From Stigmatella erecta (GTDB taxonomy: Bacteria; Myxococcota; Myxococcia; Myxococcales; Myxococcaceae): DNA of 64,000 nucleotides. Numbering within the stretch: the stretch's first letter is position 1; each line of letters opens with the position of its first letter. The notes below the pieces were generated by a model, which saw nothing but the letters and a program-made list of their open reading frames with translations, had not been told where the DNA came from and did no database searches. This document shows, in pieces, positions 39,602 through 44,541 of this stretch. A program made the translations under genes and the position numbers. Where the stretch lies: NCBI RefSeq assembly GCF_900111745.1, contig NZ_FOIJ01000006.1, forward strand, positions 310,001-374,000, in the 5' to 3' direction.

Positions 39602-41917
39602 TCAGAGGCGCAGGCCGGCCTGAAACCCCGGCCAGCGCTGCCATGTGCCGTCCGAGCCCAGCGGGCGCTCGGACACCTTCATCGTGGTGACCTTGCGCCG
39701 CTCCTCGGGCGAGAACGCGAAGTAGGTGTTGTAGGTGGGCCCGGCGAAGACGGCCAGGCGCGAGAAGATCTGGAAGCCCACCATCACCCGCGCCTGCGCC
39801 AGCAGGTTCTCGCTGTCGAAGGGCTCGTCGCGGTCGTGAAGGGTGCTGGCCACCGCATCCACATCCACCCAGAAGCGCCGCGCCAGGGGGATGTGCCCGC
39901 CGAAGCCCAGGCCCAGGCTGAAGCGCTGCAGCCGGTCATCCGGCCCGATGCCCGCCACCAGCGTGGAGTAGAAGTGCTTGCCGCCGAGCTTCAGCCCCAC
40001 GTTGGCGAGCTGGATGTCGCTCGACCAGAACTCCAGGTGGTGCTGCCCCTCCTTCACGAAGGACACCATCCCCACCGGCACCCCGTGCACCTCCTTCGCC
40101 AGGTTGACCAACCCCACCTGGGTGCCCTTCACCACCCCGCCGATGTTGAGCAGGCCGATCTGCGCGCCCGTCACGTCTCCGCCCACGTTGAGCAACCCCA
40201 GCTGCAGGCCCTCGACGTTCTGCGCGCGGTTGAACCCTGAGCTCAGCTGCACCCCGGACAGGGCGCCGCCCGCCCAGTTCACGCCCGAGGCCAGCTGAAC
40301 GCCCTGGAAGTCCCTGCGCGTCACGTTGATGCCCGAGGACAGCTGGGCCCCCTCGAAGGACTCCTTCGCCACGTTCACCCCGGAGGTGATCTGCGCGCCG
40401 TGGACGCTCCCGCCCGCCAGGTTCATGCCCGCGGACAGCTGCGCACCGGAGACGCTCGCGGTGGCCACGTTCAGCCCCACGCCGAGCTGCGCCACCCTCA
40501 CGCTCCCGCCCGCCCAGTTGCCGCCCACCGAGGCCTGCACCCCGTCCACCGCCCCACCCGCGTAATTGAAGCCCACGGACAGCTGCGTCCCATCCACCCG
40601 GCGGCCCGCCAGGTTCAGCGCCACTGCGGCCGCCAGGCCCCGCGTCTCCTCGGCGTACACGTTGGCCCCCAGCGCCAGGCCCGCGCCCCGCAGGGCGGTG
40701 CCATCGTTGACCACGCCGATGGCCACGGTGTTCTCCACCGGCGCATCCCCCGCCACCAGCGCGTTGAGGCTCAGCCCGGGCACGAAGCTCGCGTTGAAGG
40801 GCACGTGCACACGGCCCTGTGCTCCCGCGGGCGCCTCGGCCTCCACCTGGGACGGGCCGCCCCGGCCCCGGGACACCGTGGCCTCGCTCAGCACGGGGCG
40901 GAAGACGGAGGCCGCCAGTGGCGTGCCCTTGCCCTCGGTGAGCACCAGGTCCGCCTCGGAGACCGCCCCGCCCAGCTCCCGGCGCACCCGGTACCGCCCG
41001 GGGGCAAGCCCCAGCTCCGCGGGCCGGCCCGCCGTCTTCAGCAGCTCCACCACCAGCGCCCCCGCCTCGTCGCGCACGTAGAGGCGGCCCTCCAGCGCCT
41101 CCGTCAGGATCAGCCCCGCGGAGGTGGCGCGCAGGTCGGTCATCACCAGGTCCCCCGTGCCCGCCATCTCGATGTCGTAGGCCGGGTGCTGGGCGCCGCG
41201 CTGCGTCCGCTCGGTGCGCGCCAGCGTCTCGTGGAAGGCGAACTGGTAGGCCTCGTTGAGCGTCACCCGGCCATCGCGCGTCACGTCCGCCGCGCCGCGC
41301 AGGCCGGAGATGAGGTGGTGGGTGAAGAAGGAGCCGCCCAGCCGGTCCGACTCCTGGGAGGCCTCGTCCTCGCTGGACGAGGTGAGGATGGCCTGGCCCT
41401 TCACCTGGACGCCCGTGTCCACCAGGAAGGCGGGCCGGGGGGAGCCGCCCTTGCGGCGCGCGAAGGCGCCCGAGGCGCACGAGTCCAGCACCGCGATGCG
41501 CACGTCCGCGGGCAGGCCGCCCAGCGCGCGGCGCAGCTCGCCATAGTCCATGCGCTCGCCCTGGAGCAGCAGCCCCTCCTCATCCGAGTGCCCCGAGTAA
41601 TAGAGGAGCACCTCCACCCGGTTCGCGCCCGACACCCGGGCGGACTCGGCCAGGGTCCTCATGCGCGAGAGCCCCTCCAACAGCCCGGCGCGCCCGGTCT
41701 CCAGGAGCATCACCCGGTCGGCGGGGGCCACCCCGCCCAGCTCTCCCAGCACCCGGGCGAAGGCCTGGGCATCCGAGGCGGCATAGCGCAGGCGCTCGCG
41801 CCCGGGCCCCCCGTCGTTGACGCCTACCAGCAGCGCCAGCCGGCGCACCTGAACGGGCGGCTGCGCGTGGGCCACGGCCGCGGTCAGCGCCGCCACCAGC
41901 AAGAGGACACGGCTCAT
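39602..41917 (-). CDS. Caspase-family (C14) peptidase fused to a surface-repeat domain
   Basis: A 771-residue exported protein. After a signal peptide (LLLVAALTAAVAHA) comes a caspase-like p20 domain (about 24-270) with the catalytic dyad H110 in YYSGHSDEEGLLL and C147 in VLDSCASGAF. A beta-rich linker follows, then about eleven short repeats (residues about 443-620) of the form G-x-Q-L-S-x-G-x-N-x-A-G-G, about 16 residues each and later about 14, like Leptospira LA_2272 surface repeats. The end (about 640-771) looks like a beta-barrel. The ATG overlaps the stop of the upstream regulator by four bases, so expression is coupled to an ECF sigma factor operon. Confidence 0.88.
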   Translation of the reverse strand: MSRVLLLVAALTAAVAHAQPPVQVRRLALLVGVNDGGPGRERLRYAASDAQAFARVLGELGGVAPADRVMLLETGRAGLLEGLSRMRTLAESARVSGANRVEVLLYYSGHSDEEGLLLQGERMDYGELRRALGGLPADVRIAVLDSCASGAFARRKGGSPRPAFLVDTGVQVKGQAILTSSSEDEASQESDRLGGSFFTHHLISGLRGAADVTRDGRVTLNEAYQFAFHETLARTERTQRGAQHPAYDIEMAGTGDLVMTDLRATSAGLILTEALEGRLYVRDEAGALVVELLKTAGRPAELGLAPGRYRVRRELGGAVSEADLVLTEGKGTPLAASVFRPVLSEATVSRGRGGPSQVEAEAPAGAQGRVHVPFNASFVPGLSLNALVAGDAPVENTVAIGVVNDGTALRGAGLALGANVYAEETRGLAAAVALNLAGRRVDGTQLSVGFNYAGGAVDGVQASVGGNWAGGSVRVAQLGVGLNVATASVSGAQLSAGMNLAGGSVHGAQITSGVNVAKESFEGAQLSSGINVTRRDFQGVQLASGVNWAGGALSGVQLSSGFNRAQNVEGLQLGLLNVGGDVTGAQIGLLNIGGVVKGTQVGLVNLAKEVHGVPVGMVSFVKEGQHHLEFWSSDIQLANVGLKLGGKHFYSTLVAGIGPDDRLQRFSLGLGFGGHIPLARRFWVDVDAVASTLHDRDEPFDSENLLAQARVMVGFQIFSRLAVFAGPTYNTYFAFSPEERRKVTTMKVSERPLGSDGTWQRWPGFQAGLRL

Positions 41918-42720
41918 GGGGCACTCTTTTTGAGAAGGAAGGACACCTGCTGAAAGCCTACGGGAAGCGGCAGCGGCGCGGTGCGGGCCCCCTCCGACGC
42001 GGCGAGCGCCCGGGCGCTGGCGGCAATCCCCTCCAGGGAGAAGGGGCTGTCCGAGACGACGAAGAGGAACCGCTCGAAGGCCGGCGCATCATCGAGCTCA
42101 TAGGCATGGGGCAGCACGTGGGTGCCGGAAGGCGCGAGCGGTACGGACTCCAGTCCGTGCTCGGGCGCATGGAGGGTGACGGCGCCCCGCCCATCCAGGG
42201 AGAGGATGGCGCCGAAGCGGTGGCCCGCCGCCACATAGGAGACCTGCACCACGTCACGGGCGGCGGCGCGGGCGCCCTCGGCGAGCGGCTCCGGGCCGGC
42301 CGCGCCCAGGCGGTGAAGGCCGAGCTGGGGCTTCATCCCCTTGACGCGGGTCACCTCGGCCAGGGGTTCCCCGGGACCGGTGACGGGCTGCGCCGGGCCG
42401 GGACGCACCATCAGGAAGACCGCGGCCAGCACCGGCACGAGCGCCAGGGCCGGCATCCAAGGGCGCCACCGGGGCGCCTGCTCCGGAAGGGGCCGCGGGC
42501 GCGAGGCCCGGGCCGCGCGCGCCTCCACCTCGCGCGCCACGCGCCCGGGCGGGTGCTGCGCCAGGGTGCGCTGGGTGTCCTCCTCGAGCGCGGCGAGCCG
42601 GGCCGCCCCATCGGGCTCCTCGGCCAGCCGGGCGCGCGCGGCGGCCAGCTCCTCCGGGGGCAATTCGCCCAGGGCGATGCGCTCCAGCAACCAGTCTGGG
42701 GTGCGGTGGGGGGACTTCAT
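41914..42720 (-). CDS. Membrane regulator, probable anti-sigma factor
   Basis: A 268-residue protein with a cytosolic N-terminal segment (LLERIALGELPPEELAAARARLAEE) like anti-sigma zinc-finger or helical domains but without the HXXXCXXC motif. One membrane segment follows (about residues 92-110, WMPALALVPVLAAVFLMV), then a periplasmic beta-rich domain. It overlaps the ECF sigma gene upstream and the caspase gene downstream by four bases each. The position and topology suggest it holds the sigma factor at the membrane, which is inference. Confidence 0.7.
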   Translation of the reverse strand: MKSPHRTPDWLLERIALGELPPEELAAARARLAEEPDGAARLAALEEDTQRTLAQHPPGRVAREVEARAARASRPRPLPEQAPRWRPWMPALALVPVLAAVFLMVRPGPAQPVTGPGEPLAEVTRVKGMKPQLGLHRLGAAGPEPLAEGARAAARDVVQVSYVAAGHRFGAILSLDGRGAVTLHAPEHGLESVPLAPSGTHVLPHAYELDDAPAFERFLFVVSDSPFSLEGIAASARALAASEGARTAPLPLPVGFQQVSFLLKKSAP

Positions 42721-43205
42721 GCGGCCTCCAGTTCCTGCAACACGGACGACAGGGCCCGGAGGCGCTTGCGCACTCCGGAGACGGACATCCCCACCTCGCG
42801 GGCGGTCTCTTCCAGCGTCATGCCATCCACCAGGTGCAGCACGGCGATGTCCCGGCTGGAGGCGGGCACCTGCCCGAACAGCCGGTCCAGCAGCCCCCGC
42901 GCCACCGTGCGCGCCTCGGTGTCCTCCGCGGAGGCGATGCGCAGCATCAGCTCGTCCTCGCGGTCCTCGGGGCGGCGGCGCGTCCCGCGCAGCCGGTTGA
43001 GGCACTCCCGCGTGGCGATCTGGTGCAGCAGGCTCGACGGGGCGGTGTGCCGCAAGCGGTCCTGATGGCGCAGCAACTGAACGAACACATCGTGCATGGC
43101 ATCCACGGCCTTCTCTTCATCTCGCAGGAGAAAGCGGCAGCGCCGAAGCACCTGAGGCCCGTAACGCCGGTAGTAGGCCTCCACGTCGATTGGCACCAGA
43201 CTCAC
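42717..43205 (-). CDS. ECF-type RNA polymerase sigma factor
   Basis: A 162-residue group IV sigma factor. Region 2 is YYRRYGPQVLRRCRFLLRDEEKAVDAMHDVFVQLL; region 4 is VLHLVDGMTLEETAREVGMSVSGVRKRLRAL with a clear helix-turn-helix. Region 1 and 3 are absent, as usual. The start is a GTG at 43205 with GAGGGAGG immediately before it. It heads an operon of three genes joined by 4-base overlaps: sigma factor, membrane regulator, caspase-repeat protein. Confidence 0.88.
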   Translation of the reverse strand: MSLVPIDVEAYYRRYGPQVLRRCRFLLRDEEKAVDAMHDVFVQLLRHQDRLRHTAPSSLLHQIATRECLNRLRGTRRRPEDREDELMLRIASAEDTEARTVARGLLDRLFGQVPASSRDIAVLHLVDGMTLEETAREVGMSVSGVRKRLRALSSVLQELEAA

Positions 43206-43301
43206 GCCTCCCTCTCTCGGAGCATGGAAACACCGCCCCCCGGAGGAACTGTCACCGGCAATCGCCGGCCCGCGAATTTTCCTTGCTCCCCCCGCCGGAA
43301 T

Positions 43302-43316
43302 TGATAATGATTCTCA
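43302..43316. promoter_or_regulatory. Fur-family box upstream of the S4 paralogue
   Basis: TGATAATGATTCTCA fits the 7-1-7 Fur-family consensus TGATAAT-N-ATTATCA with one mismatch. It lies 30 bases before the rpsD-like ATG and overlaps the region where a -10 element or transcript start would be. The nearby ECF operon starts 97 bases away on the other strand and could also be affected. Fur, Zur or PerR binding cannot be told apart by eye. Confidence 0.65.
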
Positions 43317-43346
43317 CATTCACAATCACTCAAGGAGCATCAGGGG

Positions 43347-43970
43347 ATGGCTCGCTACACAGGCCCTCGTGGCCGCCGCGCCCGCCGGTTGTTCGTGGCC
43401 CTCACGCATCTGTCCACGAAGGACCCGGACAAGGACCCGTCGTTGCGGCGTCCGTACCCGCCGGGCCAGCATGGGCCCACCCAGAAGACGAAGATGACGG
43501 ACTACGGGCTTCGGCTGATGGAGAAGCAGAAGCTCAAGCTGTCCTACGAGCTGCTGGAGAAGCAGTGCCGCCGGTACGTGGACCGGGCCAAGCGCAGCGG
43601 CTCGAACGCCACCCGGGTGCTCATCCGCCTCATCGAGTCGCGCTTCGATGCCATGGTGCTGCGCGCCGGCTACGCCACCAGCATCCGCCAGGCGCGGCAG
43701 TTCGTGCGCCACGGCTACTTCACGGTGGATGGCAAGAAGGCGAACCTGCCCGGCATGGAGTTCAAACCCGGCACGGTGGTGGAGCTCCGGGAGCGGTTCC
43801 TCCAGCACCCGCTCTTCGTCGAGATTCGCCAGAAGACGGCGCACCGGGGCCTGCCCCCGCACGTGGCACACCTCGAGGGCGGCAAGGGGTTCCGCGTGCT
43901 CTCCCGCCCCGAGGACGTGGACCCGCCGGTGGCACTGGACCTGGTGAAAATCATCGAGTTCTACGCGTAA
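43347..43970 (+). CDS. rpsD: 30S ribosomal protein S4, cysteine-free paralogue
   Basis: A 207-residue S4 protein, the 16S rRNA-binding assembly initiator. The N terminus MARYTGPRGRRARRLF, YPPGQHGPTQKTKMTDYGLRL, and the S4 RNA-binding domain (about 95-155, SRFDAMVLRAGYATSIRQARQFVRHGYFTVDG) are clear. The zinc-type cysteines (MARYTGPxCRLCRR and a second pair) are absent; there the sequence reads PRGRRARR and DPDKDPSLRR. It stands alone rather than in the alpha operon with S13, S11 and rpoA, so it is probably a paralogue. AAGGAG precedes the ATG. A Fur-family box upstream suggests metal-responsive expression, as known for zinc-free ribosomal proteins. Confidence 0.9.
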   Translation: MARYTGPRGRRARRLFVALTHLSTKDPDKDPSLRRPYPPGQHGPTQKTKMTDYGLRLMEKQKLKLSYELLEKQCRRYVDRAKRSGSNATRVLIRLIESRFDAMVLRAGYATSIRQARQFVRHGYFTVDGKKANLPGMEFKPGTVVELRERFLQHPLFVEIRQKTAHRGLPPHVAHLEGGKGFRVLSRPEDVDPPVALDLVKIIEFYA

Positions 43971-44094
43971 CGCGCTGGGACGCCCGCTTCCTGGGCGCCC
44001 GGCGGAGCAGGCACCTCCCCGCCCGGCCGGCGAGGAATGGCCGCGTCCTTATCTTGTCCTTCGTAGAAACCGTGCGAAGCGAGGAGGTGCCTGC

Positions 44095-44541
44095 ATGTTC
44101 CGATGTTCAGCCTGTGGCGCGTTGAACCGCGTCTCCCAGCCCGCGCCGGTGGGCACGCCCTCGTGTGGGCGGTGCCATGGCGCGCTCGACCTCTCGGGAA
44201 AGCCCCAGCCGGTGGATGGCGAGGGGCTGTCGCGTGTGGTGGTCTCCTCTCCCATTCCGGTGCTGCTGGACCTGTGGGCCCCCTGGTGCGCGCCTTGCCG
44301 CGCGGCGGCCCCCGTGCTGGAGGCGCTGGGCCAGGCCTCCGCAGGCCGGCTCCTCGTGCTCAAGCTGAACACGGAAGAGCACCCGGAGGTGGCCTCGTCC
44401 CTGGGCGTGCGCGGCATCCCCTGCTTCGTGCTCTACGCGAATGGACGCGAGGTGGCGCGCCGCAGCGGGCTCATGCCCGGCGCGGAGATGAGCCGCTGGG
44501 TGTCGGAATCCCTCGGAGGCGGCGTGGGGATGCGGCTGTAG
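44095..44541 (+). CDS. trxC: Thioredoxin 2 (TrxC type)
   Basis: A 148-residue thioredoxin with an N-terminal zinc finger, C4/C7 and C24/C27, followed by a thioredoxin fold with the active site WCAPC (C65, C68) in DLWAPWCAPCRAAAP and the cis-proline segment RGIPCFVLY. TrxC reduces disulfides under oxidative stress and the zinc finger responds to redox state. The ribosome-binding site GAGGAGG is strong. The nicotinate phosphoribosyltransferase gene follows after 19 bases, so the two share a transcript. Confidence 0.93.
   Translation: MFRCSACGALNRVSQPAPVGTPSCGRCHGALDLSGKPQPVDGEGLSRVVVSSPIPVLLDLWAPWCAPCRAAAPVLEALGQASAGRLLVLKLNTEEHPEVASSLGVRGIPCFVLYANGREVARRSGLMPGAEMSRWVSESLGGGVGMRL

Follow-up and report, generated by a model that had tools for sequence, protein, structure and literature searches.

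The window analyzed here is a 64-kb stretch of the Stigmatella erecta genome. It carries a gene for a ribosomal protein S4 that lacks the metal-ligand cysteines (C-, below also the spare S4 or spare rpsD), located outside the alpha operon and preceded by a short palindromic sequence of the Fur type. The features of the locus, in window coordinates, are as follows.

42717-43205, minus strand: divergent ECF sigma-factor gene upstream of the spare S4 gene, its start about 97 bases from the box
43283..43288, plus strand: TTGCTC, possible -35 element, picked by eye
43302..43316, plus strand: Fur-type 7-1-7 box TGATAATGATTCTCA, putative operator of the spare S4 gene (pattern match and conservation)
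43320..43322, plus strand: TCA, invariant, 4 to 6 nt past the box (alignment of upstream regions)
43332..43337, plus strand: AAGGAG, likely ribosome-binding site, read in the sequence
43347..43970, plus strand: C- uS4 gene (spare rpsD), 207 amino acids (open reading frame, profile matches, and alignments)
43371..43439, plus strand: codons 9 to 31 of the spare S4, the position of CxxC...CxxxxC in cysteine-type S4, without a cysteine (alignments)

The spare S4 gene is followed directly by a thioredoxin gene (44095-44541) with an N-terminal CxxC pair, for which TrxC is the nearest family, at 109.7 against a cut-off of 125. The window also encodes a caspase-domain (Peptidase_C14) protein of 771 amino acids at 39602-41917.

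By its domain cut-offs, the spare S4 is a bacterial ribosomal protein uS4 (PF00163, 66.4 bits, and PF01479, 45.2 bits, both above cut-off); it also passes NF003717 (179.9 bits; cut-off, 116) and falls below the cut-off of TIGR01017 (166.5 against 177.2 bits). The four N-terminal cysteines of the CxxC/CxxxxC motif are absent, and the single remaining cysteine, C74, is invariant in 12 aligned orthologues, so that the label "cysteine-free" given in a sequence-only reading of this DNA is right for the ligand positions and too broad for the whole protein. Structure prediction returned a mean pLDDT of 63.1, with much of the N-terminal part below 50.

The same reading had placed this gene outside the alpha operon and looked to a second, cysteine-containing rpsD elsewhere, its absence counting against a spare copy. 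Such a gene exists (G000:C1:1238662-1239270): it adjoins S13, S11, and rpoA in the alpha operon, its product is 38% identical to the spare S4, and it carries the motif CRIC...CYTDKC (C+ type). One genome thus holds both a ligand-free and a ligand-bearing copy of S4. The best-matching PDB chains for the alpha-operon S4 are from Thermus, and in the phmmer alignment with the Thermus thermophilus S4 its four cysteines all fall in register, in agreement with the CxxC...CxxxxC pattern of [4Fe-4S] cysteine-type uS4. An Fe4S4-type iron-sulfur cluster in Thermus uS4, bound by the pattern (CXXC)-(CXXXXC), is described in PMC10450194, and such a cluster is also reported in PMC11791143. By analogy with this Thermus literature, cysteine-type S4 may bind an iron-sulfur cluster rather than zinc; an older survey (PMC3087516) has a zinc atom on Thermus S4, so that in other species the metal may be either.

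The Fur-type box and its conservation

The box TGATAATGATTCTCA is separated from the ATG at 43347 by 30 bases, differs from TGATAATNATTATCA at one position, and is the sole site with 3 or fewer mismatches in the window (shuffle mean, 0.06), bearing out the original description of a Fur-family 7-1-7 box, one base off the pattern, ahead of S4. Across the 9.2-Mb genome, TGAKAATNATTMTCA occurs at 6 sites with at most 1 mismatch, compared to 0 for the reversed control pattern, and the S4 box is one of two exact matches. Its placement over the promoter was done by eye: a -10 element matching the TTGCTC would possibly sit within the box, and a strict sigma-70 scan of 43150-44120 yielded no promoter.

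Orthologues of the C- S4, defined by at least 50% identity, were found in 40 of 195 Myxococcota genomes, all belonging to the family of the window's organism (40 of 96 family rows). The box reaches at least 13 of 15 positions in 38 of the 39 orthologues examined (G373 was left out; the exception, G368, has 11 of 15), indicating that a metalloregulator box is conserved in the spare S4 family. It is also present at the loci of Myxococcus xanthus AM003, M. qinghaiensis, Corallococcus terminator, C. carmarthensis, and Archangium lansinium, some of which may duplicate genomes of the 39-orthologue set. Thirteen aligned upstream regions share 14 invariant columns, 11 of them within the box and 3 forming the TCA 4 to 6 nt past it, which may belong to a second, overlapping half-site.

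Such conservation bears on the idea that the box belongs to the divergent ECF sigma-factor gene, or is a chance match to an AT-rich promoter. The box does lie in the intergenic region shared with that gene, about 97 bases from its start, and an AT-rich -10 element would overlap it. However, the box accompanies S4 even in genera that have a different upstream gene, the invariant columns coincide with it, and the reversed control has no match in the own genome; we regard this idea as improbable in the extreme.

The spare gene is missing from three of seven same-genus genomes. Among 12 Myxococcota genomes in which a C- copy is the only S4 found, some of them incomplete, none has a Fur box (best score, 11 of 15). 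In Sorangium cellulosum, a C- S4 coexists with a C+ copy and has no Fur-type box upstream (9 of 15); the Fur box therefore characterizes the window's family but does not extend to all myxobacterial spare S4 genes.

Fur-type and Zur-type sites in related genomes

In 10 genomes, the Fur-type pattern with at most 1 mismatch gave 57 sites, compared to 1 for the reversed control. Nine of these are S4 sites (the S4 site of G007, at 13 of 15, falls outside the 57), and the genes at the other 48 were read, with Pfam assignments for 22 proteins and similar ones assigned by eye. Iron-uptake-type or transport genes follow 36 of the 48 sites: TonB-dependent receptors (10), TonB (6), EntA-like short-chain dehydrogenases (5), MFS transporters (4), HmuY (3), siderophore-interacting proteins (3), PepSY (2), and FTR1, a periplasmic binding protein, and imelysin (1 each). 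The remaining 12 precede genes without assignment or not iron-like, including two with RCC1 repeats. The S4 box thus belongs to the kind of site that stands ahead of iron-uptake genes in these genomes, as expected of a Fur regulon. Lipoprotein-like RCC1-repeat genes with a Fur-type site close before them (L007:1500-3015 and L209:1990-3580) have no plain iron link; in the own genome, some 5.6 kb lie between the site at the RCC1-repeat gene and the divergent Fur-family gene described below.

From gene order, we take MXAN_6908 of M. xanthus to be the C- S4 and MXAN_3325 the alpha-operon S4. No iron gene was seen by eye beside the spare S4 in 34 kb of M. xanthus sequence; PMC9548883 calls MXAN_6911 FepA-like, predicts MXAN_3702 to be Fur, and describes Fur boxes ahead of eighteen predation-upregulated genes.

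Two genes with the Fur-family domain PF01475 are present per genome in the 5 genomes searched. The stronger match (132 to 133 bits) reads as a canonical Fur in the own genome; the divergent one scores 45 to 49 bits, and its nearest solved chains are several Fur proteins and one FurB/Zur. In G011, the divergent gene stands beside paralogues of S14, L28, and S18 and a CobW-type GTPase. A second palindrome, TGCAACNNNGTTGCA, is found with at most 1 mismatch immediately ahead of the divergent Fur-family gene in G000 (the window's genome), G015, and G030, and before an S14-L28 or L28-S14 pair and before S18 in G011 and G030; elsewhere, it neighbors genes for further CobW GTPases and for a TonB-receptor plug protein, as well as some without a plain zinc link. 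The divergent protein is probably Zur, and TGCAACNNNGTTGCA is assigned as its motif on the basis of its position before the divergent gene and of the relatives, since counts in the own genome (2 sites with at most 1 mismatch versus 3 for the reversed control) could not alone settle the matter; over 10 genomes, the numbers are 84 versus 30. Loci of the probable Zur regulon of this family with the box TGCAACNNNGTTGCA are L081:8333-12051, L083:8683-9743, and L080:12059-12544. All 14 genomes searched have ZnuA at a single locus, and no obvious box was seen by eye just upstream of it in 10 genomes, some of the loci being on the other strand. A second L28 gene occurs in 3 of 14 genomes and is absent from the window's genome.

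In all 22 C- S4 upstream regions, the Fur pattern matches at 13 to 15 of 15 positions and the Zur pattern at no more than 11 (no more than 12 in a later set of such regions), whereas in 9 of 10 zinc-type promoters the Zur pattern matches at 14 or more of 15, the exception being L28 of G023 with 10, and in none of the 10 does the Fur pattern exceed 10. The C- S4 genes thus lack the box of the organism's own probable Zur. This result goes against the proposal, made from the sequence, of a zinc-free S4 under Zur comparable to L31, L33, L36, S14, and S18. In its favor, Zur uses 7-1-7 Fur-family boxes in some bacteria. The spare S4 lacks metal ligands, and S4 was treated as zinc-binding in PMC3087516, but the same survey reports no Zur site near S4 paralogues. 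A zinc-sparing S4 is very unlikely, and Zur control of the spare gene is rejected on the basis of the motifs.

Spare S4 genes in Actinobacteria

In a scan of named genomes, Thermoactinospora rubra was found to have a C- S4 gene without alpha-operon neighbors and with GTAGGTTAGGCTTGCCTAA upstream, a sequence that resembles the DtxR/IdeR consensus; the other S4 of this species is of the cysteine type. The divergent neighbor gene, for which no Pfam match was obtained, might be served by the same box.

Among 249 genomes of this order, the matches listed include 99 rows at least 75% identical to the T. rubra C- S4. The DtxR/IdeR-like box scores 15 to 18 of 19 in all 30 of the closest copies, with 0 of 100 shuffles as good in each case, at least 13 of 19 in 19 of 20 copies at the low-identity end of the 99 rows, and at least 16 of 19 in 24 of 25 more diverged copies (50 to 58% identity), and it is found in none of five actinobacterial cysteine-type S4 copies. 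In total, 73 of the 75 C- S4 upstream regions examined carry it (misses, L316 and L384), the 75 comprising 50 of the 99 listed rows and the 25 more diverged copies. The random-piece control was drawn from the loci that hold the sites, and its high tail does not represent background. Fifteen genomes with the spare type as the only S4 found (L367-L381) all keep a weakened DtxR-like palindrome, at 12 to 16 of 19, so the actinobacterial box is not confined to spare copies. A rule that a sole copy has no iron box fits the Myxococcota genomes read (0 of 12) and is blurred in Actinobacteria, where 15 of 15 have the palindrome.

Phylogenetic analysis places the two spare groups in separate clades, each strongly supported: the myxobacterial spares group with other myxobacterial C- S4 proteins (89/91) and the actinobacterial spares with Glycomyces S4 (100/97). 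Since the boxes also differ between the two lineages, iron control of the spare S4 most likely arose twice. The Glycomyces S4 gene (L156) has alpha-operon neighbors, yet its product stands apart from other actinobacterial S4 proteins in the tree and is perhaps a replacement of the housekeeping copy. In PMC524172, rpsD appears among DtxR-linked operons within a secY operon, a different arrangement.

Iron sparing as the favored explanation

We consider it likely that the spare S4 is an iron-sparing protein, derepressed in low iron to replace the cluster-bearing S4. When iron is ample, iron-loaded Fur would occupy the promoter box and repress the spare gene; when iron drops, Fur would leave the box and the cluster-free S4 would be made. 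Incorporated into ribosomes, it would let 30S subunits be assembled at no cost in iron-sulfur clusters, or at times when the housekeeping S4, presumed here to carry a cluster in myxobacteria as well, could not be matured. Iron as the possible signal had been raised in the sequence-only reading as the second option, and it fits the Fur-type box, the iron-uptake genes behind most other sites of this type, and the DtxR/IdeR-like box in Actinobacteria. Weighing against this explanation are the poor box of G368 (11 of 15), the absence of the spare gene from 3 of 7 same-genus genomes, and the 12 of 48 sites that are not iron-like.

Published expression data for M. xanthus agree only loosely with the iron-sparing model. 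According to PMC6791715, RPKM values of the two S4 paralogues are similar in growing cells, meaning that the spare S4 is not silent then, and are tenfold apart at 48 h of development; both paralogues rise in predation, as do iron-uptake genes (PMC9548883). These shifts, together with the altered translational accuracy caused by S4 mutations (review PMC12186496), could also suit a different benefit under Fur control, e.g., a ribosome variant of changed accuracy for stress or predation, with low iron acting only as the trigger. This alternative is unlikely, as it leaves unexplained that in both lineages, despite their different boxes, the iron-controlled copy is the ligand-free one.

Metal economy has well-known examples in the zinc-sparing ribosomal proteins. 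Like the Zur-controlled C- paralogues (S14, L31, L33, L28, S18, and others), the spare S4 is a ligand-free second copy preceded by a metalloregulator box, while the copy with the ligands sits in the main operon; unlike them, its operator is of the Fur type (DtxR/IdeR-like in Actinobacteria), and the metal saved would be the iron of an iron-sulfur cluster. In iron-sparing responses, iron proteins are swapped for iron-free ones under Fur or IdeR. The spare S4 resembles these in that an iron-free substitute is controlled by an iron regulator and differs from them in that a core ribosomal protein would be the one replaced.

The C+/C- S4 pair of M. xanthus was reported by Chen, Roberts, and Luthey-Schulten in 2009 (PMC3087516), and their C-(IV) S4 very probably belongs to the same gene family, with C+ in the alpha operon and C-(IV) outside it. 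Nitrosomonas europaea, Bdellovibrio, Salinispora, and Frankia are likewise recorded there as having both forms. In that survey the metal was taken as zinc, Zur profiles were searched and no site was located near S4 paralogues, and the word "iron" occurs 0 times in the main text; iron control is the addition made here. A literature search covering few subscription papers gave no report of an iron-controlled S4 paralogue, and the available parts of PMC12186496, PMC10931766, and PMC7010606 hold nothing on iron control of S4. This suggests that what is new is iron in place of zinc among metal-sparing ribosomal paralogues, the paralogue pair itself being already known.

On balance, we lean toward an iron-sparing ribosome in which, at low iron, a [4Fe-4S] S4 gives way to an iron-sulfur-free S4 controlled directly by an iron regulator, an arrangement that would have arisen separately in Myxococcota (Fur) and Actinobacteria (DtxR/IdeR). 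If true, it would be a parallel to the Zur-controlled zinc-sparing ribosome, and the S4 cluster would extend to cysteine-type S4 proteins in general instead of being a peculiarity of Thermus. It would also account for the lack of Zur sites at S4 paralogues in the 2009 survey. Two questions can then be put to the test, namely, whether the cysteine-type S4 of mesophiles is an iron-sulfur protein and why the S4 cysteines were lost in large bacterial groups. The iron version would carry metal economy in the ribosome to the metal most limiting for many bacteria and would tie iron-sulfur cluster supply to translation.
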